From: Chytriomyces cf. hyalinus JEL632
Taxonomy: Eukaryota; Chytridiomycota; Chytridiomycetes; Chytridiales; Chytriomycetaceae
Direction: 5' to 3'
Assembly: GCA_025435555.1 (NCBI GenBank)
Contig: JAIWWG010000099.1
Span: 43,377-107,376 of the forward strand
Length of the DNA: 64,000 bases
Shown one piece after another: positions 22,847 to 59,715 of the stretch. Under the pieces are notes generated by a model, which had not been told where the DNA came from, did not search any database, and was given only the letters and a program-made list of their open reading frames with translations. The first letter of the stretch is position 1, and each line of letters begins with the position of its first letter. Position numbers and translations under genes: made by a program.

Positions 22847-22906
22847 GGTTCTGAATAAATACAGATGCGTCCTGGTGGAGTTTTTTTTTTTATTTAATTT
22901 TTTTCA

Positions 22907-24616
22907 ATGACCAAACGCCGAAACAAGAAACGCAGAGGGGCTGAAGGGGCGCAAGCATCGGAACAGACCAAGAAGCGCATCGCACGCCGCTTTGCTCCCC
23001 TTGAGTCCCTGCCTTTGGAGATTTGGCATCGGATCTTGATCCTCCTTCCAGTCAATATGTTCTTACTGCCAGTAGCGCAAGCAGCTCGCATCTTCTCCGA
23101 CATCCTTCTTCACGACTGGCACTTTGCGCACAGGCATATGAAATTCTTCACAACGATGAAACTACGCGATGTCAACGAGTTTTACTCTTACATTCTGGAA
23201 CTGCGCGAAGAACTTCCGCTTCCCTATGCGGCGAGCGTGATTCGCTCATGCTTCACAGGCGACTCCACCATGTATGTACTGCGGTCCGTCTTTCAGTTGT
23301 CCAGAGTTACGAGGCAGGCAGGAGAGAAGATGATCGCATTTTTGGTAGACTTGCTTGACACAGACTCGCTGGCTCATATGCTTGAATGGATGGCGACATG
23401 GGCCCATATCTCGAAACAACCTGTACTTGACATTCTGAGAAAGCACATGGAATTGGATGTTCCACGAAGTGTCATGTACACTGCTACAGCGCAAGGGTGG
23501 ACCGACGTTGGGCAGCTTATTTTCAGTCGTGGATTCAACGTTACGTCCAAGGATGATGGTGCTCTTGCCCATAAGGGAGTTCTTGCCCATGCAATCCGGC
23601 ATGGCCATAAGGAAATGGTTGCTCTGTTGCTTCAAGACAAGCAAATCGATCTTTCGCCTGGAAATTACAGCCTGTGCCGGTTGTCGAAATCATTGGATAT
23701 TGCGGAGACTTTATTCTTGGACCGACGAGTTAAAGATGGGGAGTTCCTTCTTTCTGTCGCGCGAGGGGATGTCGATGCTGTCACGAAATATCTCCACTTG
23801 TTCGCAAAATCCAATCTTGCCGGTCCAAGGAAAGTGTGCCTACTAGTCGCAATTCATTTCGACCAGCCTGATGTTCTCACAGTCCTGCTGCAAGATAAGC
23901 GTCTGTATCCAACAGATCATCACCACCAAGATTTGCTCAAGGAGTCTGCAGTCGGACAAAGTTGGAAGGTCTTTCGAAACCTCATTGGACATCCGCGATC
24001 CAATCCATTTCAAAAGAAATGGAACCTGTACGAATTATTGTGCAACGGAGATACGTATGAGGATGATAGACTCGAGGCGTTCAAAGCATTTGTGTCACGC
24101 GAGGATGTCAAAAAATGCATGGACCGCACACGATGGAGTGCACCCCTGCAATTGGCTTGCAAGATTGGTGCAAGAAACCTGTTGGAGTATGTTCTCGCTG
24201 AAGCCGGTGATACTGTCGATTTCAACTGTGCAGATGTGATTGGCCCAGCAATCAAGCATGCAAGAACGCAAGACGGCGGGGATCAAATACTCTCAATTCT
24301 TGCCAGCCACAAATCATTTCGCCCAAGTGACACCCTAGTTGCACATCACTTTGTCATAGCAATGCCCGTACCAACATCGCCCCTTGCTAAATATGTTCTG
24401 AGCAAAGACCAGCGCTTTTTTTCGCCTGCTTGCTTGCAGGAGGCTTTTGATGATGGGTGCAACTATGAAATCAAAGGAGTTGTTGAAATTCTCATTCAGC
24501 TACCTTTCATTCAAGTCAGCCCAAGCCAATCTGAAGTTGTCGAGTCTCTCAAACATGAGCGATATGGCATGCATTGTGACCCCGCTCTTTGTGATTGTGG
24601 TATTTCCTCCTTTTGA
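22907..24616 (+). CDS. F-box-like/ankyrin-like protein
   Basis: A single-exon gene of 569 residues. A basic start (MTKRRNKKRRGAEGAQ) is followed by an F-box-like helix pair (PLESLPLEIWHRILILLPVN, then LLPVAQAARIFSDIL). The rest is helical with weak ankyrin-type repeats, best seen at GVLAHAIRHGHKEMVALLLQ, KDGEFLLSVARGDVDAV and RWSAPLQLACKIGARNLLEY. F-box proteins link substrates to SCF ubiquitin ligases, but without a confirmed SKP1-binding core this is inference. The gene is followed directly by a decayed copy of itself, so it belongs to a local tandem family. Its start is 60 bp past the aldolase stop. Confidence 0.7.
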   Translation: MTKRRNKKRRGAEGAQASEQTKKRIARRFAPLESLPLEIWHRILILLPVNMFLLPVAQAARIFSDILLHDWHFAHRHMKFFTTMKLRDVNEFYSYILELREELPLPYAASVIRSCFTGDSTMYVLRSVFQLSRVTRQAGEKMIAFLVDLLDTDSLAHMLEWMATWAHISKQPVLDILRKHMELDVPRSVMYTATAQGWTDVGQLIFSRGFNVTSKDDGALAHKGVLAHAIRHGHKEMVALLLQDKQIDLSPGNYSLCRLSKSLDIAETLFLDRRVKDGEFLLSVARGDVDAVTKYLHLFAKSNLAGPRKVCLLVAIHFDQPDVLTVLLQDKRLYPTDHHHQDLLKESAVGQSWKVFRNLIGHPRSNPFQKKWNLYELLCNGDTYEDDRLEAFKAFVSREDVKKCMDRTRWSAPLQLACKIGARNLLEYVLAEAGDTVDFNCADVIGPAIKHARTQDGGDQILSILASHKSFRPSDTLVAHHFVIAMPVPTSPLAKYVLSKDQRFFSPACLQEAFDDGCNYEIKGVVEILIQLPFIQVSPSQSEVVESLKHERYGMHCDPALCDCGISSF

Positions 24617-33580: not shown

Positions 33581-36500
33581 CTAAACAAGTCGCTCGCGCG
33601 TGATAAACTGTTTCACTGGATCGTAATCCATCGCCGTCCCTTTGCAAATCTTGCCGAGCGCCTTCACCGCCCACACCGCACCTTCCCGCTCCCTTTGCAA
33701 CGTACACATCACCACACACGTCTTATCCCCCGCCCGTGCGCATTCATCGAAACTATACTGACACAACTCAGTCATACTCTCGCCATCAAATAACCGAACC
33801 TCAGGCGTCAAAATATTCGCAAGCGTCGTTGTCCATGAAGTCATTGCCACAACCAGAGTTTTGACCGTTTTCGACAGTTTGGTAGTCGAGATGTTGACTT
33901 TGTGAGAACCCCGATCCGCAGTGACGATATCGCCAGAGTGCCGTAATGCTCCATCCTGACCAGAGGTATGTCTATAATCCACCAACTCAATAAACTTGCC
34001 CGAAAAGTCATAAGCAAGAACCGTCGCGTCCAGGTATTGCGACAACCCGCCGCGGCCCCAACTCTCTTCCATCACAATCTGTTTAATGTTCGGTGCACAT
34101 CTGTACGACTGTCCCTTTCGCAGGATTTTCGATACGCCGCTTTTGTGGATTTTGCTGAAGTCCGTGTTTCTAGAGTGGTAACCCTTCGCCAGCGACTGTC
34201 GGACACAGTGTCGCAAGCACTCCGTCATCTTTGCAGGGGAATATGTGGGACTAGCAAAAGGAAGCCGAGGCAGCTGAAAGTGCGGTACGATATCCTGATA
34301 ACTGTTGCAAGCAAGAATCGACGACATGTCCGTTTTCAGGCGCGACAAAAAGTGCGCTGGTGGTCGCCCGTAAAACAAATCATGGCTCTTGGCAAGTTGT
34401 ACAGTTCCTCCAGCCCGACTGATAGCCTTGAACATGGCAACATGAGCAGCCATCAGTTTGAGTGACACCGCCGATCCTGCAAAGGACTCTTGAATTCGCT
34501 CTTCTTCGACTCCTCCTTTCGTGATGGGCGCAAGCTTTGCAAGAGACGGGGTTTGCCGACAAATCCATAGAACCGCCCGCTCCATCGACTCCTTCAAAAT
34601 CAAAGGTCCCACATTTGCCCAGGCAGCTAGCGGATCACCCAGCACAGAAATGATGGGAACCAAATCACCTAATGAAGCAACGGCCTCCTTGGTACGTTTC
34701 GAGGGCAGTTTCGCAAACGTCTTCAGTTTGCTCAAGATTGCGGTCTTCAGTTGGGGATATTCGTAGATCATGGCAAGAAAGAGGCGGTGGATTTGAAAGT
34801 AGTTGCTCAGGAATGCGTCCGAGTTGTGCAGGCCACTATCGCAGAGCAGTACCAATTGGGTATTCATGAGTTTTGGCAAAGTTTCGAGGACGGTAATAGG
34901 ATCAAAGCCGCGACACTTCATGTGAGGACAAAGCCGAACAAACGATTTTCTCAGCAAAGGGAGCGACCTTTGAAAATGATCATACGACAGGTAGAGAGGC
35001 AGCCACTCGCTGTTGATAAAATGCAAAGTGTCAGTTCTTTCGTGCATGTTCAAAGGTATACCAAGAATAAAACCAACCTGAAGGCTTCCGACCAAACTGT
35101 TTTCCTCACTTGATCCACACGAAATGCTGACGCGGATAAAAGCTCCATAGTCGAGTGCATGTAATCGATCGTTTTCTTGACAGGATTCACCGTAAACTCG
35201 ATTGGAATGCCCAAAATATCTTCCTTAAAGGAAACTTTGCGATGGAAGCAGCGGAGATCCTCCACTACGCCCATCATTTGCATTCGGTACACATGCTTCC
35301 AGTCTCCCAACGATGCCGCCTTCAACTCCAGCTTTGCGTCAAGGGAGCTGTAAAGGTGCTTCCACAGGTACCCATCCTCTGTGGCAGTATTGAAAAATTT
35401 GCAGGATTGGGAAAGCACCATGACTGATTGCACAGGGAGCATGTTAAGAATTTGAAGAAGAAGCTCGTACGGAACACTTGCAAAGTGGCCGATTTTGGTG
35501 GTCAAGGAGTCGACTTCTTCTTGTGGCGCTTCCTCTGGTTTATCTGGAACTTGCACCGTAAATTCTTCCTCGATGATTTCCTGGGATGCGGGCAGAGTTG
35601 GATTGAAGTATTTGGCAAGCCGCCGCTTCTCATTTCGCTTTGCGTTTTTCACGGCCGTTTTTGTAAGTTTCGGAGTTGCAAGAGCTTCAACGGTTTTGGC
35701 GACCGGCTTGGTTTTGAAGGCCGTCGAGTTCACTTTCTCAACTGAAGCAGGTTCGGCACTGGGTGCAGCTTGGTACTTTGTCACCGCGGCAGCATCCCAT
35801 TCCTGAACGTCCTCCAGCACAGAAAACATGGACTTTGACAGAAATGGTGAAGCCAAGTCCGCAACTCCTTCAAAAGCAGCAACGGTAGGCACTCCTTCTT
35901 TCTTGGACCCACAAACCACCCATTCAAGTTCATCCTCAGCCATCACGCGTACACGTGCCAATGAAGCCGCTTCCCCTTCGCGCATTCGCCGCACTGCAGC
36001 CTGCTCCAACAAATCTTTCACAAACGGCCGCTCTACATAAACTGGCTCCGACGTTTCGGAAACGCTCTCTACTGCAACAGGCCACCAGCCACCAGTGCCG
36101 TCGCGGGGTGGGGAGTGTGAACATTCTGGGCATTCGTATCGAGCAGCGTGGTTTGAAGCGACGAGTACACGTTCGGACTGGCCGGCGTGAGTGTCGAGAA
36201 GGAATGCTGGGGTTGGAAAGTGTGTTCAACATCCCGGCGCGGTGGATAAAATGAAATCGAATAGACACTCACTTTGAAGCTGCATCATGATGCTTCGAAC
36301 TGTATATGAAGAACTCCATCCACTGTAGGGAAATGTACCACTAGAGTGAGTGCTTGGATCAGCGTACGCGCCCGTTTCGAGCATGTCCAGGCAGATCCTG
36401 TGAAATCCCGGCCGCTTGGGTGCAGCTGAAACGTTTGGATGAGGAAGTGGCGAGCAGAGAAGTACTTTGGGCGGTGCAGTTGGGTAGTTTTCAGGGAATT

Positions 36501-36705
36501 CCAGAGTGAAGTGAAGCGGAGTCACGGCAAATGGACCCTTAAGACCGAGAAGGTTTCCGTGCCACAGGAACAGGTTTTCTTGGTTCAGGGGTTCGGCATT
36601 TGCGCGGGCCACGGGGCTTTGCTTCAGTTCGGCAAAATCGCGGTAGAGGCGTTTTGCGGCAGTGGAGGAGAATGCATTGCTCGTGAAACTGGCTGTGGTG
36701 CTCAT
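33581..36705 (-). CDS. E2 ubiquitin-conjugating / F-box / TerD fusion protein
   Basis: Three exons (36705-36273, 36206-35110, 35077-33581) give 1008 residues. Residues about 14-170 are a UBC fold: FTLEFPENYPTAPPKV, the HPN motif at 89-91, the active Cys105 in FHRICLDMLETG, and YSGWSSSYTVRSIMMQLQ. A CPEC...linker follows. An F-box lies at about 388-432 (VPYELLLQILNMLPVQSV, then SQSCKFFNT and LWKHLY). A 400-residue helical middle part is unknown. Residues about 852-1000 match TerD: LDATVLAYDFSGKFIE, LRHSGDIVTADRGSHKVNI, then KTLVVAMTSW. The E2 would carry ubiquitin, the F-box would bind SKP1, and TerD domains belong to stress-response systems and Dictyostelium CABP1. How they combine is unknown. 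The second intron would be only 32 nt (35109-35078), but it restores the frame exactly. Confidence 0.78.
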
Positions 36706-38462: not shown

Positions 38463-41400
38463 ATGCATGTGACCGTTGCGTTGCTTGCCATTGTGCGAGG
38501 AGTCTGGGCTTGCGCTGAGCCAACGCTCATGGCGCAGAGTCTGTACGACTCTTCGACCGGCGCCGCTCTTTACAACGGTGGATTTGCATGCGCATACAGC
38601 GGCGCACAAGCATCCGCCGGAGAATATATGTGTCTGCTGTCTCCAAATGGGAATACGCTGGATCTGATTGGGGGTACGTCTTGCTCTTTGAACTCTCGGT
38701 TTCTGCGCACTTACGTTTCATCGGCGTTCAATAGCCTCACAGCCATCGCATGCACCACCGTTCCAATGCTGTGCGAATGACCCTGTTTCTAACCTTGCTT
38801 TGTGTTTGGGCGGTCTCACGACGGACTCCCGGCTTTTCCGATTCAATTTGACGTCACGCTTGTGGCTGGACGCAATCGATATTCCACCAGTCCTCGCTCT
38901 ACGGTCCGGCCATTCATGTACTGTGTCTAAAGGAAACCTTTTCGTGGTTGGCGGTCTTTCGTCGAAGGGGGACGTGGCGTCTCCCACAATGTTTTCAATC
39001 AGCCTTGAAGCTTATGCTGTTCGCACCGACTACTCTGCCCCACCTTCTGCGGCTAGAGTTGGACATGTCACCGTGACTCTTCCATCAGATGATATTCTTG
39101 TTTTGTTTGGTTCCACAAGTCCGCCAGCAGTCGCACAATTGCCAACCCTCATATTCAGTCTTGAAAACGGTTCCTGGTCTGAGTACTCCAGCAAAGCTGC
39201 AAATTCGCCAGATCTATTTCCTCGAACCTTGGACGGTGCTTCATGCACAGCATGGTCTTCTACTGCGAGTCCTGATGGAGGTGTCTTTTGCTATGGAGGA
39301 AGGGACGTTGCTGCTTCAAACCCTATTCCATACCTCACCTACTTGAACTTATCTTCTGCAACCTGGTCCAATTTGGGCTCCCCTCCTACCTCATCGGGAC
39401 AATATTCTGGTACTTTTGGATCTTCAGTTTCGTTATTGAATGGAGGAAGCGTCGTAGTGGTGAAAAGTGGTGGCTCAGCTCTTTCGACGAACGTCTACAC
39501 ATCAGCAAATGTTGCAAAAAACTTTGCTTGCTCTTCTGGTGATGCGAACGACGGTTTTGGAAACTTTTACGGTGTCCCGCCATTGGGTCCAGGGACATGT
39601 GGAATCGAAGGAAAACCGCAATGCCCTTCTGCCTCTTCCCTTGGCGCTACGAATATCTCTGCTGTTGGTTCTGGGTGGATTACGCCAGCTCCGGGAGTCG
39701 GATTTCCGGTCGTGACTCCAATTATGAAAACGGCAGTAGCAACTGCAGTTCCATCGAAAACTGATATCAACATCAAAACATCAAGTGTAGTTTCAAATCA
39801 GGGCGATAAAGATGTTAATGGGTCGGACGGTAGCGGCCTGTCAGGAGCGCGTCTTGGACTCGCGATAGGCATTCCAATTCTGATTCTCCTCCTATGTTGC
39901 GTTGGAGGTTTTGTCTATGGGAAGAACAAAGCCTCTCGTGCGGATATGAAAAAGCGATCCGAAGTTCCGGCGAGAGCGCCTTTACCAGGAAATTCTGTTG
40001 ACATTGGAATGGCTGCACTACCACCGAGTAATAGTTTGTCTTGTCTTTATTTCCTGTCTGGAAACACACTGAACCTTTTCTTGTTTTTTGCATCCTCAGC
40101 TGATAAAATGGATAGTTCGGGACAAGGACCAACGTACGTGGCTCCCCCAACGACGGATACATACAACTCCATCCTCGATCAAAATCAAAGTCCTGGAGAC
40201 ATTACGAACTCTCACGGCGGTGAAACATTTGCAAAAAGCGCCGTTTTGGGTGCAAGCAGCTTCGCAGCACTGGCGTCCACCACAAAGCAAAAGTTCGCGG
40301 GTGTTCAGAAAAACGATGGCAGCATAAATCTTGTTGACGATTCTCCAAGCAGCGCAGGTTTGATTTTTGGGAGAGTGAATTATTTTTTTAAATCTAACCT
40401 TCCCACATCAACCGCGATTAATATCAGCCATTCAAAGCGAAACCCTTGTTGGTGCAAGCGTGGCGACAGCAATTTCAATGCAAAATGGTGGGATTTAATT
40501 TTCGCTGTGTGTGTGTGTAAACACTCACTCTTCCATTCTGTTCTGATGCAGAAAAACACACTCCATCGGCGGAAATGGGTGCTACTACTTTGTTTGCCGT
40601 TGGTGCAGGCGAAGAGGTTTCATTTGAGTCTGATGGTGTGTCAATAGTTTCGTTCCTCATTTAACTAGCAATCCTGACTCATTATGTTCATGTTAGCTGG
40701 CCATCTTGTCCATGTGCCTCTAGGTGGAAAATCGGCAATCGATGATGTCCAAGCATCAGTTGGCATAACGCCGCCAGTCTCTGATGAAGCTTTGTACAGC
40801 TCGAGACCAACTGAAGTTGAAAACGTTTTTACAGCTCCAGTAGTTGCTCTTGCTGCCGCAGCTGCAGGCGCATCTGCAATCGCCCAAACGAGACGCAAAT
40901 CTGATGCCGCAACGCGTGGTCCAGCGATTCCTGAAAATTCTGTCAAGCCTCTGTCAAAGCCGGAAAATCGCGATGCACCCGCTTCGACTCTCCCCTTCTT
41001 TGGAAGTTTCTTCAGAGGCCCGTCTGCAGATCAGCCTTCCACCTCCGAATCACTCTCTCGCGATGCCGTGGTTGCATCTTCTGAATCTGCTCTCACTCCA
41101 GCGGACATTACCATGCCATCAACTCTTGAGGAGACTTTTACGCCAATCGATCAAAACGGCTTAAATACTGCTGAAGAAGAATTTTTGCCGCCACTGGTTT
41201 CTTCATTCCCTTTGGAAGCCGCCGTTAACGAGGACTCGCATCGCGAATCAGATGTGGCGCTCGATTCGGCAGAAGGTTCGTTACAATATACCCCCTCCAT
41301 TTCGTGAAGTATCCTCATTCAAACTTCTCACATTTCGCAGGAAATCCAACGTATTTCACCCCTATTCCTGAACCCGTGGCCTCAGCTGCTGATGTTGAAA

Positions 41401-44400
41401 ATCCCAATATGATCAGTGTGCACGAGTCAACCCCTCGTGAAATACCGAGCGTGTCGGAGTTATTTGCGGAGGAGAAAATCCACATATCTCCTCTTGTTGC
41501 CCTCTCTGCTTCGAGCATCAGACCTCTTGCTTCCAACTCGGAATCAAGCAACAAAAAAGATGTGGATGAAATCGTTACTTTGCCGCAATCAACTCAAGGT
41601 GCAAGTGCGTCGACTTCGAAGCGATCATTTTTTGGCAGTTTCTTCAAAAGTGCAACAAACGATGAAAGCGAACCTCCGACCAATCAATTGTCGAAAGATG
41701 TTTCTGTTCTGCCCGGGGTTTCTGAGTCAATGACTGTGAATCCGGCAACGAATGAGCGACCTTCGCCTGTGGCAGTTACTGGAACCACTTACTTAAGTGA
41801 CGTCGGTGTTGAAGGCGCCTCAACAGATCTAGAAAATGTTGCGAAAGACGTTGTTTCTCCTGAGCTCAGTGCTCGTGTACCTCTGACAAGCAGTCTGAAA
41901 CCAGGCGCCGCCAGTTTTATCACAACCAATGCTGATGATTTCAATCGAGTCGGATCAAACGTTACTGTAGTGAAAGAAACAATGAATGCACCTGCAACTG
42001 CAGCTCCCTCAACTGGAAACAACGTTTCCGTGGCAAGCTCTCAAATGGAGCGCGCCATCCCTTCCAACACCAATCTTGAACAGGATTCGGATAATACTGA
42101 TGCCTTAATGGGCAGTCAGGACGGACTGCAACCAGAAATGGTTGAATTGCGTGCGGTTGCTCCAAGCGAAAGCGATGCACCCATCGTTCACGTCGCGGCA
42201 GCTCTCCCTTCATCGAATGAGTTTGGTCCGCCTGTTGAAATTTCGGCCGTTGAGGTCGTCCCCACATCAGATATGGAGACACACTCTGAAAAGCCGGGGA
42301 GCTCATTGAACAAAGGCGTGTCCAAGATGGCCACAGTGGTGCCCGTTTTACTCGATTCCCAAAAACCATCCAAGAAACCTGTATTTAAGTTGTTCAAATC
42401 GAAGAAAGCGGTTTTGCCTGCTTCAACCGACACTGCCGCTGCCGATGCGACCAACGTGTCGGCGGCCTTCGGCGAAAATAGCAGTGAATTGCGAAGCTCG
42501 AAAATGACTGATGGGCCAGTGAAAACATCGATTCTCAACGACCCTGAGCTCAGTGCTGGTGTTCCTCTGGGAAGCAGTCTAAAACAAAATGCTCCCATTG
42601 GCATTACGACCAATGATGATTTCAGTCTGTCCAAATCAAGCGTTACTGTAGTGGAAGAAACAATGAATGCAAATGGCGCTGCATCTACTATAACTGGAGA
42701 CAACGCTCCCGTGGCAATCTCTCAAATGGAGCGCGCCATCCCTTCCAACACCAATCTTCAACAGGATCTGGATAATACTGATGCCTTAATGGGCAGTCAG
42801 GACGGACTGCAACCAGAAATGGTTGAATTGCGTGCGGTTGCTCCAAGCGAAAGCGATGCACCCATCGTTCACGTCGCGGCAGCTCTCCCTTCATCGAATG
42901 AGTTTGGTCCGCCTGTTGAAATTTCGGCCGTTGAGGTCGTCCCCGCATCAGATATGGAGACACACTCTGAAAAGCCGGGGAGCTCATTGAACAAAGGCGT
43001 GTCCAAGATGGCCACAGTGGTGCCCGTTTTACTCGATTCCCAAAAACCATCCAAGAAACCTGTATTTAAGTTGTTCAAATCGATGAAAGCGGTTTCGCCT
43101 GCTTCAACTGAACCTGTCGCCGCAGATGCAACCATCGTACCGGCTGCCTTGCCCGAACATAGCAGTGAATTGCGAAGCTCGAAACTCACTGCTGGACCAG
43201 CGAAAATGCCGATTCTTGATGACGAAATTCCTGCCGTCTCGAGTTCATTAGCAGTGCAGAGTCATGAGAGAGCTCTGGAAGGTATCACAAGCATAGCTGC
43301 CACTCCGGCAGCATTCATTCACAAGAATGATATCAAAATTGTCGATTCATGGCAATCTAAATCTGATGAAAAAAAGATTGCAAACGTTGGCGGCGTTACT
43401 CTCAATGAATCTGGCTACGAGATGAAAGATACTGATCAGGGCGAACACAACGCGTCGAAAGAAGCCGAAGAAAAATCAAAACGGCTTGTGGTTGGACACA
43501 GTGAAGGTGGCAAAGATTACCAAACTTCCTTTGCTGGGTCCAAAGCCATCAATTTGGCTGCGCCAGAGGACAAATTGTCGGAAACGTCTACGGCCGCGGC
43601 AAGTAGGGAATTGGAGACCGCCACAGCTGCGTCAAGTAAAATTCTGGAAGCAAATCTGGCTCAATTCTCAGTGGAGAAACGGTTTGATGAAAGTTTGCCA
43701 GGTCCAGCTGTCGATACATCAGCTATTGCTCCCGTTTCATCTCAAAACCGCGGTGAACTGGTCTCCATCGGAAGAAGGCCCGCGCCAAACACTGATGGGC
43801 ATCAGGAGAATGCCACCAGTAATTCTGGCAATCTCATTGCTACATCCATATCAACCGATTCCAAAAAGGCTCCCAAGAAACCTGTATTTAAACTGTTCAA
43901 ATCGAAGAAACCCGTCTTGCCTGCTGAAACTGTCGAGAGTAATGAGAGAACTCTGGATGGTGTCGCAAGCATAGCTGCCACTCCGGCAACATTCATTGAC
44001 AAGAATGACATCAGAAGTTCACTACAAGCTGACTCTGCTGATGAAGCAAATGCAATAGCAACCGTCGGCGGCGTTGCTCTCAACGAATCTGGCTACGGCG
44101 TGAAACAAACTGATCAGGACGAACACGACTTGGCCAAGAAAGCAGAAGAAACATCAAGAAGGGTTGTGGTTGGACAAAATGGAGGTGGCAAAGAGGATTA
44201 CCAAATCGAGCCCAATGCTGCCAAATTATCGGAAACTTCTCCCTCCGTGACAACAAGTGAATTGGAGGCCACCACAGCTGCGTCAAGCGAAATTGTGGAA
44301 GAAAATCCGCTTCAGTTGGCAGACGAGAAGCAATCTGATGAAAGTTTTTCAGGGCCTGCTGTCGGCAGGTCAGATACTGCTTCCGTTTCATCTCAAAACC

Positions 44401-47400
44401 GCGACCTCTCTGGTGAACTGGTCTCCATCGGAACAAGACCCACACCAAACTCTGACGGACCTCAGGAGAATGCCATCAGTAATTCTGGCAATGTCGCTGC
44501 GGCACCGCTGTCAGTTGATTCCAAAAAACCTCCCAAGAAAGCTTTGTTCAAGATGTTTAAATCTAAAAAAGCTGATGCGCCAACTTCAGCAGGGAAGTTG
44601 AACTCCGATGTCGATCCAAAAGCGGTAGTTGTGCTTCCTTTAAATGGGCGCAGTCAGGATGGACAGGATCTTCTGGCAGTGATTGAGGAGCCAACCAATG
44701 GTATACCTCTTGATCATGAAATCGTGGCTATCTCCGCGAGGCCAGTATTTGAACCTGAAGTGCGAGGTACAGACACCAGAGACGCTGAAACGGATAGCTC
44801 TGTTGTTGACCGTGCGATGACAATAGATGACGCCTTATTGAGCGGGGCTAATCGCCTCTCAACTGCAAAAGCAAACACCGGAGTTATGTCTACGGACACG
44901 AAAGCAGCAGACGTTGCAGCAAGTGGGACATCTGCGGAAAACGTTGGAGACCCGCAAATGATGCCTGTTGAACTTTCAAAGATTGTGGAAATGGCGACTC
45001 CCGCACACTCCACGATTCCTGTCGTTGACTTCGCCGCATCACTGAATGTTGCTTCCGTTCCAGTAACGTCATCGGAATTCATCAACTCTGAAATCGATAA
45101 TCATGAACCAGCATCTGGCGTGACGGTGATCGAAGAGGATGTGATCAGCACAACGCTGAATCATGCCGACACTTCAATCATTCAGCAAGCGGGAATTACT
45201 ACAACCAAAATATTTCGCTACTCATCGCAAACGGCTAGCGCACCATCAGCTAGTGCCATAACTTCGGGGGATATGAGCGACTGGACTATAGCTAGTCCTG
45301 AAATTCGATCTTCAACTAAAATTCCTGCGCTTTCAGAAGCAGTCAATATCGATTCCGTAGATGAGGAAGTCAACGCGGTTGTCATAAAAGAGTCGGAGCT
45401 TCTCATTCCAGTTGAATCCACCCATTTAATCGACAATCTGGGCGTCGACACAACATCAAGCACTGAATTGTCTACTGAATCGTCGGACTCATATATTCAT
45501 TTATCCTCTCGAGTTACTGTTATTGCCGAAGCAATCAACACTGCGAAAGACACAAGTCTGCCTGAAGGAATGCCGAATGTTCCTCATATCGAAAATCTAT
45601 CCATCGCAGATGGCGCGTCTCACGATTTATCTCGCGCTGAGAAACCTGTTACTAAGGTTGACAACGAACCTCGCTCTCCAGTTGACTCGTCGGACTTCGC
45701 GGTAACTAAGACTCAGTCCAACAGTCCGGTCACATCTAAACCGAGATCCTTCTTTGGAAGAATCTTGAGTAGTGTATCTGGAACTACCTCATCAGATGCA
45801 TTGAATGGTCCGCTGGAGACTATTGCCGTCACATCTGCTGGAATCAGCCCCGTTCAAGAACAGTCGCCATCAGAAAACAAAACCAGTGCTGCTTGTGAAG
45901 GCAATGCTCGCACAAGTGACAAAATTGATTCAAACGCTCGGAGTTCGACCGTTGTTGTGATGGAAGAAGAAAATGAGGGTGTATTGCACTCGAACGATGC
46001 GGCTGGGTCTGTCATGGCTTCAAACATTCTCAAGGATGTTTCTGTGGCCTCAAGTGACATAGAATCAGCATCAATGAATCCCAGTGTGAAGACAGCCATG
46101 TCTGAGAAGGTTGAAGTTAGTCAGGAAGTGGACATTCCGGCTCAAAACACTTTGTCTTCTGCAAATGTGGCACCAATAACCAAAGACGAGACGGTTACGA
46201 GAAGCTTGGAAGAGGCTTATCCAAAAACAGCGTCACTTGATGTGGCAACGGCTCCCGGTACTGTATCTTTGGACGAATCGAGGAGTGAAAACGCATCTTT
46301 CGCTTCCGATGGGCAAAAATCTTCGAATGCGGAAAGTCATACGAGTGGCATGCTGGCTACAAACAGAGAGCTCCCTAAAACTGCGACTGATGCAGCATTT
46401 GCGATGCAAGGAGCAGTTCCTGAAAGCAAGCCGGCCAAGAAACCAATTGTCAAACTGGTAAAGGTTTCCAAGTCCGAACCGAAAAAATCGTTGGTGCAAG
46501 TAATGCCAGAGACCGATATCGGCAGACGTACTGATCCCAGCTCAAGTATGACTGCCAATGAAAGTTTGCTTGATGACAAGAAGCAAGAATCTGAACGAAT
46601 TGTGTCCAAGGCTGATGAGGAATTGGTAAATGTCCAGGTGGTGCCTCAGAATACTGCCGATTCCTCTTCCACGCTTGCTGCGACGGGAGCGCAAATCAAA
46701 ATTGCGAAAAAACCAATCGTGAAAATGGTAAAAGCCACCAGGGTGGAGAGAAAGGAAGAAACTGGAGAACACTCATCGATCGCCACCTCTGATGCACCAT
46801 TGCCCGACAACGTCCAAGAGGACAGTGCAGCTGTGCCTGCGCAGGTTCCGAAAGGTTCGATACTTGCATCTTCCAAAAGTGATGACGGTGAGAGCACTTT
46901 TGAGTTAACTTCAAGTGATTCTGACCATGTATTTTTTCGCCCCGGACTATCAGTGCTGCCTTCAACAATCATTGATGTCGCCGGTAGTGAGCGGAAAGTT
47001 TCCGTGTTGGAGGGAGTAGTCCCCGTCACCCCAGAAGTATCACATGAATCGGCACCAGTTGCACCCAAGAAAGTCGCCAGAAAGATAGTTATTGCCAAAA
47101 GGAAAGTCGATACCCCCGTCATTTCCCCTCAACTGAGGGTGGCCGAATTCGAAAGTAGTCCTTCCCAGGACTTTTCAGTCGAAAACACGACGGCCAGCAA
47201 CGAGTCAGCATTAACAGACAAGGCAAACGATATTCCGGAAGAAACGATGAAATTTTCGGACAGCATAACGACAGCAGTGGGAGCAGCTTCTCCTGATGGA
47301 GTCTCCGAAGCCAGCGTGTCTGTTTTAATCCCTGAGCCTGGCAGTACAGGGCCTATAGCGCAGAAGGAGTTGGATGCTCTTACTGGTACAGTTTAGAGTG

Positions 47401-56523: not shown

Positions 56524-59500
56524 ATGGTGAGACTCTGGGCAACACCCCATGGCACCATCCGCTATTGTGCAGAGAAGCAACTGGAGTTGTTCAAAAGTGG
56601 ATGCAGCGCTGGAACGGCGTGAGACGCGGTTATGATGGGACAGGAGGGGAGTAACATTGGGCCTGTTATCGATTGCTTGAAACTGTCGAGAGGAGCTCAG
56701 GCTGACTGATGAGTTGGGCTCTCGCCTGCGATGAGTGGAGCCGTCCGTCTTGAACATCCAAGTTAATTAACCATTCCATTTGAACTCAACGCATTACAGG
56801 TTGATCTCCCGATAAATGGTACTCACAAACATTTGACTCTTCTTCCAACACTTGACACCAACCCGCACAACCATTTTTACCCTTGCCTTCACCATTCTCG
56901 GACGTACAGAGGTAATACGCTTCCTTATTGATGTACTGACGTTTCACTAACAGCGCTATCTTGCAGCTGAGAACTCTTATGGACAAGAGGACTAACATCC
57001 GTAACATATCCATCATTGCAGTGAGCATTGTTATGCACCACGCGTATGCTGGCTACTCTTCTCACAGATATATTATTTTTCATTTTGCATCAGCATGCCC
57101 ACCACGGAAAGAGCACCGTCCACGTGAGTATCCCCCTGCATGACATCATCACAATTCAAATTATACTTATGCGACATCCAGGATTGTCTCGATTCCAAGG
57201 CGAGTTTAGTTACTGGAGCTCGTATCGGACATAGTGGCTATCGCCAGCAGGGCCGTGATTATGAACCTGAAACGAGTATCATAATCAAGGCCAGTACTAC
57301 CCCCTTGCACTTCACCATGCCTGGACAAGACCTCGGTGAAATTAAGCAACCGACAGCTGGTGAGTTACTTGCCTTTTAGCAGTCAACGAGTGACATTCGC
57401 ACCTTTCTTCAGGATCAAATTTCTTGATCAATTTGATCGACTGCCCAGGTCACGCCGACTTCTCCCCTGAAGTCACGGCATCCCTTCGCGTCACTGACGG
57501 TGCCCTTGTCGTCATTGACACCATTGACGGCGTGTGTATGCAAACTGAAACTGTGCTGCGTCAAGCCCTTGGAGAACGTGTCAAGCCTGTCATCATCATC
57601 AACAAGGTCGACCGGGCCCTGTTGGAGTTGCAAGTTGACAAGGAATCGTTGTACACTGTAAGTATTCATATTCTACCATTCTCCGGCTGTGAATCCTAAG
57701 ATTTGTTCGAATCAAAATAGAGCTTTCGTAACATTATCAAAAATGTCAACGACATCATTTCGACCTACCATGTGGATGCTCTTGGTGACATGCAGGTGTC
57801 CCCAGAGAATGGTACTGTCTGCTTCGGGTCTGGTCTCCATGGATGGGCCTTCACTCTTCCCCAGTTTGCCGCTCTTTATTCCAAGAAGTTTGGCGTTTCC
57901 AAGGAGAAGTTAACGGCCAAGCTCTGGGGTGACAACTACTTCAACCCAGCCACCAAGAAGTGGACCACCAAGGCTCAGGATGCGAATGGCAAAGACCTTG
58001 AGCATGCTTTCAACATGTTTGTTCTTGACCCCATCTACAAGCTCTTTGACTCTATCATGAGCTTCAGGAAGGAGGAGACTGTTGCCCTCCTGGAGAAGCT
58101 CAATGTTGTCCTCGAGCCTTGTGGGATTGAGTTGGAAGGAAGGTCACTTCTCAAAACTGTTATGCGTGCGTTCTTGCCATTTGCCAATGCCATTTTGAAG
58201 ATGACATGTATCCACTTGCCCTCCCCAGTCACTGCTCAAAAGTACCGTATGGAAGGCCTTTACGAAGGTCCCCTTGATGACGAGTGCGCCATTGCCATCA
58301 AGAACTGCGACCCAGACGGTCCTCTCATGGTTTACGTCACCAAGATGGTTCCCACTACCGACAAGGGTCGTTTCTACGCGTTTGGTCGTGTCTTTTCTGG
58401 TACTGTTCGTGCTGGACAAAAGGTCCGAATCCAGGGACCCAAGTACATGGCAGGAAAGAAGGAGGACTTGTTTGTCAAGAGCATTGAGAGTACTGCTTTC
58501 ATGATGGGGCGTTATGTCGAAACAATTGAGGACTGCCCGTGTGGAAATATTGTTGGACTTGTTGGAATTGACCAGTTCTTGCTCAAGTCTGGCACTGTCA
58601 CTACCTCCGAGTCTGCGCACAACTTGAAGGTCATGAGGTTCTCTGTGTCACCAGTCGTGCAAATTGCAGTTGAGGTCATAAATGCCAAAGACTTGCCCAG
58701 GCTGGTTGAAGGTCTCAAGAGTCTGTCAAAGTGCGACCCGGGTGTTCTTTGCTACACATCCGAGTCAGGCGAGCACATTGTTGCTGGTGCCAGCGAGCTT
58801 CACTTGGAAATCTGCTTCAAGAAACTTAAGGAAGACTACTCTGGCGTCTCGTTGAGAAGGGGAGACCCGGTCGTTCAGTTTTGTGAAACTGTTCAGGCTG
58901 AGTCCAGCATCACTTGTTTATCCAAGTCCCCAAACAAGCACAATCGAATATACATGAAGGCGCTCCCAATGGCTGAGGAGCTTTCTGTTGCCGTTGAGTC
59001 CAGAAAAGTCAACCCCAAGGATGATTTCAAGAACCGAGCTCAGATCCTTGCTGACGAGTTTGAGTGGGATGTTACTGAAGCTCGCAAGATTTGGTGCTTT
59101 GGTCCAGATGCAACAGGTGCCAACATGCTGGTTAATCTTACAAAAGGGGTTCAGTACTTGAACGAAATCAAGGACTCTTGCGTGTCTGGATTCCAGTGGG
59201 CCACCAAGGAAGGATGCCTTGCCGATGAGAGCATGCGTTCCGTCCGTTTCAACATTCTTGATGTTGTTCTGCTGTCTGATGCCATTCACCGAGGTGGAGG
59301 TCAAATTATTCCAACTGCGCGTCGCGTCTGCATTGCATCATTCTTGACTGCCAGCCCAGGTATCCAGGAACCAGTGTACCATGTTGAGATCCAGTGTCCC
59401 GAAACTGCCATTGGAGGAATTCTCACTGTGCTCAACAAACGTCGTGGTGTTGTTTTCCAACAAAAATCTGGAACCCCACTCTTCCAGGTCCGTGCCTACC

Positions 59501-59715
59501 TCCCGGTCATGGAATCATTTGGTTTTGCTGGAGACTTGCGCGCTGCCACAGGTGGACGGGCCATCCCCCATTGTGTGTTTGATCACTGGCAAATCATGGA
59601 AGGAAACCCACTTGAGGAAGGTACGATGACCCATGATCTTCTTCTCCGCACTCGTGCAAGAAAGGGTCTTAAGGTTGAAATGCCGGTCCTTGAGGACTTT
59701 TACGACAAACTTTGA
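56524..59715 (+). CDS. Divergent eEF2-like translation elongation factor
   Basis: From [25 protein letters not shown] (switch II region) through [13 protein letters not shown] (NKxD), [15 protein letters not shown] and the diphthamide loop [17 protein letters not shown] to the end LEDFYDKL, the protein matches eEF2, which moves tRNAs on the ribosome. The N-terminal G domain is unusual. The P-loop reads AHAHHGKST instead of AHVDHGKST. Switch I, normally containing RGITIKS, reads ETSIIIKAS, losing the Mg-binding Thr. Exons from 56962 onward were joined at about 57020-57088, 57125-57181, 57361-57414 and 57661-57720. The first exon is probably just ATG (56524), but the second (near 56799) does not join in phase. 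The C-terminal two-thirds keep eEF2-like codon use. Confidence 0.82.

Follow-up and report, generated by a model that had tools for sequence, protein, structure and literature searches.

In the textbook view of SCF ligases the E2 enzyme is a molecule distinct from the F-box protein and the two can exchange freely, the F-box serving to recruit Skp1, Cul1 and Rbx1. Large hybrid E2/E3 proteins are also known, such as UBE2O and BIRC6, in which an E2 domain sits within a long chain that may itself take part in choosing targets; to our knowledge neither of these carries an F-box or a TerD domain. A eukaryotic protein of the TerD family is found in Dictyostelium (CABP1). In published accounts the usual partners of the F-box are LRR, WD40 or Kelch repeats (PMC4327156) and the TerD domain of bacterial and jumbo phage Ter systems is proposed to bind or sense ligands (PMC7824862, PMC7159879).

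Within the 64,000 nucleotide stretch of DNA analysed here (the window) we identified a minus-strand coding region (33581..36705) predicted to combine these elements in one chain. Three independent Pfam matches, each over its cut-off, fall within one spliced frame and we regard it as confirmed, at the level of the predicted protein, that a single gene encodes an E2, an F-box and a TerD domain. As in the substrate receptors of SCF (Cul1-Rbx1-Skp1) ligases an F-box of about 44 residues is followed by a long and possibly target-binding part, however its partners here are an E2 and a TerD domain in place of the repeats described for F-box proteins.

Gene model and surrounding frames

The coding region runs on the minus strand from an ATG at 36705 to a stop at 33581, through three exons (36705-36273, 36206-35078 and 35009-33581) and two GT-AG introns, with a spliced translation of 996 residues. 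An earlier note on this DNA had given the same start and stop with a length of 1008 residues, which is corrected here since we prefer another second intron. Intron 1 (36207..36272, 66 nt, GTGAGT...CCCCAG) is unchanged from that note and has the best donor (GTGAGT) among the 12 GT-AG candidates, 40 nt or longer, joining exons 1 and 2 in frame within the stretch tried. The second intron had been placed at 35109-35078, which at only 32 nt is shorter than we would accept, and it was dropped, our enumeration of junctions having started at 40 nt. The preferred intron 2 (35010..35077, minus strand, 68 nt, GTTGGT...CTGAC...CAACAG) was picked by its signals, namely length, donor, a branch-like CTGAC and acceptor, from 60 GT/GC-AG candidates of 40 nt or longer that join exons 2 and 3 in frame, so that its exact site is a best candidate and not proven.

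Joining exon 2 to exon 1 extends the UBE2G2 match to residue 148, as against residue 140 with exon 1 alone. The best score against UBE2A rises from 52.5 to 54.7 bits and that against UBE2G2 (2cyx) from 43.9 to 45.6 bits, while the Pfam E2 match gains just 0.1 bit (61.5 to 61.6). Compared with the region of UBE2K past its active site, the stretch spanning the junction gave a weak alignment of 6 bits, which is not significant. With a codon-usage score for which 11 other open frames of the window served as training set, the modelled frame came out on top in 7 of 8 scoring windows of exon 1, 21 of 23 of exon 2 and 21 of 30 of exon 3, with the exon-2 frame scoring highest in only 2 of the 30 for exon 3. 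The exact position of intron 2 cannot be read from this score, since at 35110-35021 the exon-3 frame (frame 0) is already in the lead. A TATAAA at 36754-36749 upstream of the gene and an AATAAA directly after the stop codon are putative elements of its expression.

Elsewhere in the window, in which no tRNA genes or Rfam families were found, the frame at 57721-59715 encodes eEF2. Its best PDB matches were 7old (998.7 bits), which we take to be from Chaetomium, and 1n0u, the eEF2 of yeast (990.8 bits), ahead of entries at about 907-925 bits that are presumably from animals. The ranking for this one gene fits a probably fungal origin, within which the chytrids suggested by the earlier note are a guess. 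Two further plus-strand frames were observed. The first (41229-47396) has 2055 residues, among which Ser, Ala, Val and Glu are abundant, and contains long internal repeats that are almost identical, including a block with VELRAVAPSESDAPIVHVAAALPSSNEFGPPVEISAVEVVP present twice. The second (22898-24616) has 572 residues and ankyrin repeats, ankyrin being its sole Pfam match with E <0.001, and begins with a sequence that by eye is F-box-like (SLPLEIWHRILILLP).

Domains of the predicted protein

The E2 domain (Pfam PF00179, UQ_con) occupies residues 19-151 (36187..36651, minus strand) and spans intron 1, with residues 145-151 encoded in exon 2. Its match (E 7.9e-17, 61.6 bits against a Pfam cut-off of 27) lies almost wholly in exon 1, which alone gives E 8.5e-17 over residues 19-144, and covers profile positions 1-112 of 140 with the last 28 (113-140) unmatched. 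Solved E2 chains match from E 9.4e-14, the nearest being UBE2A, UBE2D and UBE2G2, and a match to RWD, which is related to the UBC fold, fell under its Pfam cut-off. The HPN motif and active-site cysteine claimed previously were both found, with the translation and its alignment with UBE2A placing HPN at residues 89-91 (36441-36433) and Cys105 at 36393-36391, followed by an E2-like ICLDML. The domain thus shares with UBE2A/Rad6, UBE2D and UBE2G2 a UBC fold by profile, the HPN and cysteine and the matches to solved chains, and differs from them in its fusion to an F-box and a TerD domain, in an insert between HPN and Cys105 (6 residues relative to UBE2A), in a longer stretch after the cysteine (25 residues to the next W, against 8 in UBE2A) and in its unmatched C-terminal helices. 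Because of the insert, the longer stretch and the unmatched profile positions the E2 may be inactive, and its catalytic activity is plausible but not secured. Right after the E2 part the translation reads CPECSH (residues 170-175, 36115..36132, minus strand), which resembles half a zinc knuckle and is a possible remnant of one; the corresponding zinc-finger match was sub-threshold (E 0.06).

The F-box (residues 387-430; 35350..35481, minus strand) had also been called in the earlier note and is upheld by two Pfam families over their curated cut-offs, PF12937 (F-box-like, residues 387-430, E 1.2e-9, 38.3 bits against 24.3) and PF00646 (F-box, residues 389-427, E 1.5e-5, 25.1 bits against 20.5). 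Such an F-box may alternatively act in a Skp1 complex without cullin.

Between the F-box and the TerD domain lies a middle part (residues 431-816; 34124..35349, minus strand) that spans intron 2 and in which no Pfam family was found over its cut-off. Two weak matches, to Transposase_21 (E 0.19) and to a pilin (E 0.56), were judged to be due to chance. This part had been described as unknown and helical; the lack of a family match agrees with the former, whereas the helices come from low-confidence models and are only suggestive. AlphaFold2 block means ranged from 28 to 49 in its exon-2 portion and from 27 to 72 in its exon-3 portion. Overall the exon-2 model (mean pLDDT 32.7) is of no use and the exon-3 model (mean pLDDT 56.8) is fair only across the TerD domain, and the models are too weak for naming a fold in the middle part.

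The TerD domain (PF02342; residues 817-978; 33638..34123, minus strand) is significant at E 2.9e-11 (43.6 bits against a cut-off of 25.3), so that the domain assigned previously stands while its match begins at residue 817 and not 852. The same part matches phrog_5698 (E 3.6e-12). When exon 3 was searched against plasmids by tblastn 587 records were obtained, the 20 matches listed all lying over the TerD part, and similarity to plasmid TerZ/TerD-family proteins was seen at E 4e-3 and 30.6% identity. The protein resembles the TerD family (TerD, TerE, TerZ; KpTerD 2kxt) in profile and fold and is set apart from it by its eukaryotic fusion, by an identity of 20-29% to the aligned bacterial rows and by loss of the acidic loop. 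In contrast to the bacterial and jumbo phage Ter systems no other Ter protein was found among the 9 ORFs of the window scanned with Pfam.

The acidic loop of the family, GDNxTGxGxGDDE, is replaced in the alignment by GDIVT--ADRGSHK, the degenerate loop comprising residues 880-890 (GDIVTADRGSH; 33902..33934, minus strand). By eye the GD-N...G-x-G-x-GDDE loop is kept in all 28 bacterial alignment rows. A motif scan found the full motif in 79 and GxGDDE in 80 of 80 fetched bacterial TerD loci, counts that refer to the closest 80 of 575 relatives of canonical TerD, a choice favouring the motif, and to three forward frames per locus in which a neighbouring ter gene could supply the match.

A Foldseek search with the exon-3 model retrieved the TerD structure 3ibz (E 5.4e-10), a match that is not independent of the sequence comparison because bacterial TerD rows went into building the model. 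Also among the 7 matches below 0.001 was 7jtk_A (E 8.3e-7), a 749-residue chain in the radial spoke 1 entry of Chlamydomonas, a hint that eukaryotic flagella may make structural use of TerD-like folds. The fold search further returned long proteins of viruses with a TerD-like fold, among them an uncharacterised one of 1248 residues from Tetraselmis virus 1 (E 3.5e-6), and viruses like this algal virus could be carriers of TerD between bacteria and eukaryotes.

Alternative readings of the locus

The close-relative scans found none for exon 3 in viral_contigs or genome_contigs and none for exon 1 in viral_contigs, and tblastn with exon 3 and residues 1-537 gave no match in phages. A PF00179 search of one bacterial genome gave no match either, but its positive controls were also silent. 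Absence of relatives says little here because the collections searched comprise phage, plasmid, viral-contig, bacterial and archaeal sequence and were not built for eukaryotic genomes. A literature search of partial coverage, with few subscription journals, found no paper on TerD together with F-box (also combined with ubiquitin-conjugating and fungi) and none for any of six ways of spelling the fusion.

It is conceivable that the locus is expressed as two or three transcripts, with intron retention or separate starts giving an E2 (159 residues) or E2-F-box protein (529 residues) and a separate TerD protein. When read unspliced the first frame indeed stops after 159 residues and that of exons 1-2 after 529 residues, and the exon-3 open frame, which overlaps the end of exon 2, has its first ATG at 35047, in the TerD frame and three bases past the stop at 35052-35050. 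However the 159-residue product would end inside the E2 helix past the active site, the exon-2 open frame starts one base past the first stop (36226/36225) with its first ATG 240 nt in at 35985, both introns have usable signals and there is no room between the frames for a promoter or 3' end if the genes were separate. Because intergenic space for separate genes is lacking splicing is the better reading; we infer that the exons are joined by splicing into one gene and consider split transcripts improbable. Still further down in our estimation, as very unlikely, is a chimera of assembly or annotation, a view to which the single genome record and the lack of relatives in the collections listed above lend themselves, but against which stand the even composition (GC 0.48-0.52 throughout the locus) and the fact that a chance join would rarely yield both long open frames and two splice junctions in frame.

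If the fusion is real the E2 could nevertheless be a non-catalytic module, UEV-like or autoinhibitory, that serves an otherwise ordinary F-box receptor as an interaction domain of E2 fold. The HPN-Cys105 insert, the 25 residues to the next W and the unmatched end of the profile all point in this direction, against which HPN and the cysteine are kept with an E2-like ICLDML, while classical UEVs have lost the cysteine. Taken together we regard this as an unlikely reading though one of real weight. Much harder to sustain is the proposal of a ubiquitin ligase sensing metal or calcium through TerD, which goes back to the suggestion in the earlier note of a response to metal or stress. The fold match to TerD is in its favour, as is the solved KpTerD entry 2kxt with its calcium-binding title, and the acidic loop of TerD reportedly holds calcium in work on KpTerD. 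As this loop is lost in the window protein, however, metal or calcium binding through it is unlikely and we give the proposal scarcely any credence; what remains as a candidate role for the domain is binding of a ligand or protein, in line with published proposals.

Proposed role within an SCF-type ligase

The reading we favour, tentatively and at a little under an even chance, is that of a fungal substrate receptor of the SCF type which brings an E2 of its own and whose middle and TerD parts bind a target or ligand. By docking on Skp1 the F-box would bring the protein into a Cul1-Rbx1 ligase. By analogy with the established SCF pathway the N-terminal E2, tethered to the F-box through a linker of about 235 residues, may then be held near the RING protein Rbx1 or near the substrate, where it would deliver ubiquitin as a priming E2, as an extending E2 or by transfer in cis onto the bound target, with the middle part and TerD domain holding that target or a small ligand. 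Binding to Skp1, activity of the E2 and the role of TerD are thus all presumed from domain content. The suggestion of a self-contained ubiquitin transfer unit is borne out in so far as the domains lie in one gene with HPN and the cysteine kept, although an SCF receptor bringing an E2 along is more likely than a self-contained unit, because an F-box recruits Skp1, Cul1 and Rbx1. We are more doubtful of a stronger form, in which the protein's own E2, charged by E1, and its own F-box would act within SCF to hand ubiquitin over to a target, or to a ligand-linked partner, on the TerD or middle part with no outside E2.

A natural tether between an E2 and an F-box would allow a direct test of whether tethering alters how fast a cullin ligase works, which type of chain it builds or which targets it chooses, and the E2-F-box-TerD protein may serve as a natural model for protein-degrading tools made of a single chain. 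It would also represent the reuse of a domain of the bacterial Ter systems within the ubiquitin system and, should the stronger form be true, an SCF receptor independent of any outside E2 that has recruited a bacterial stress-ligand domain as its recogniser.
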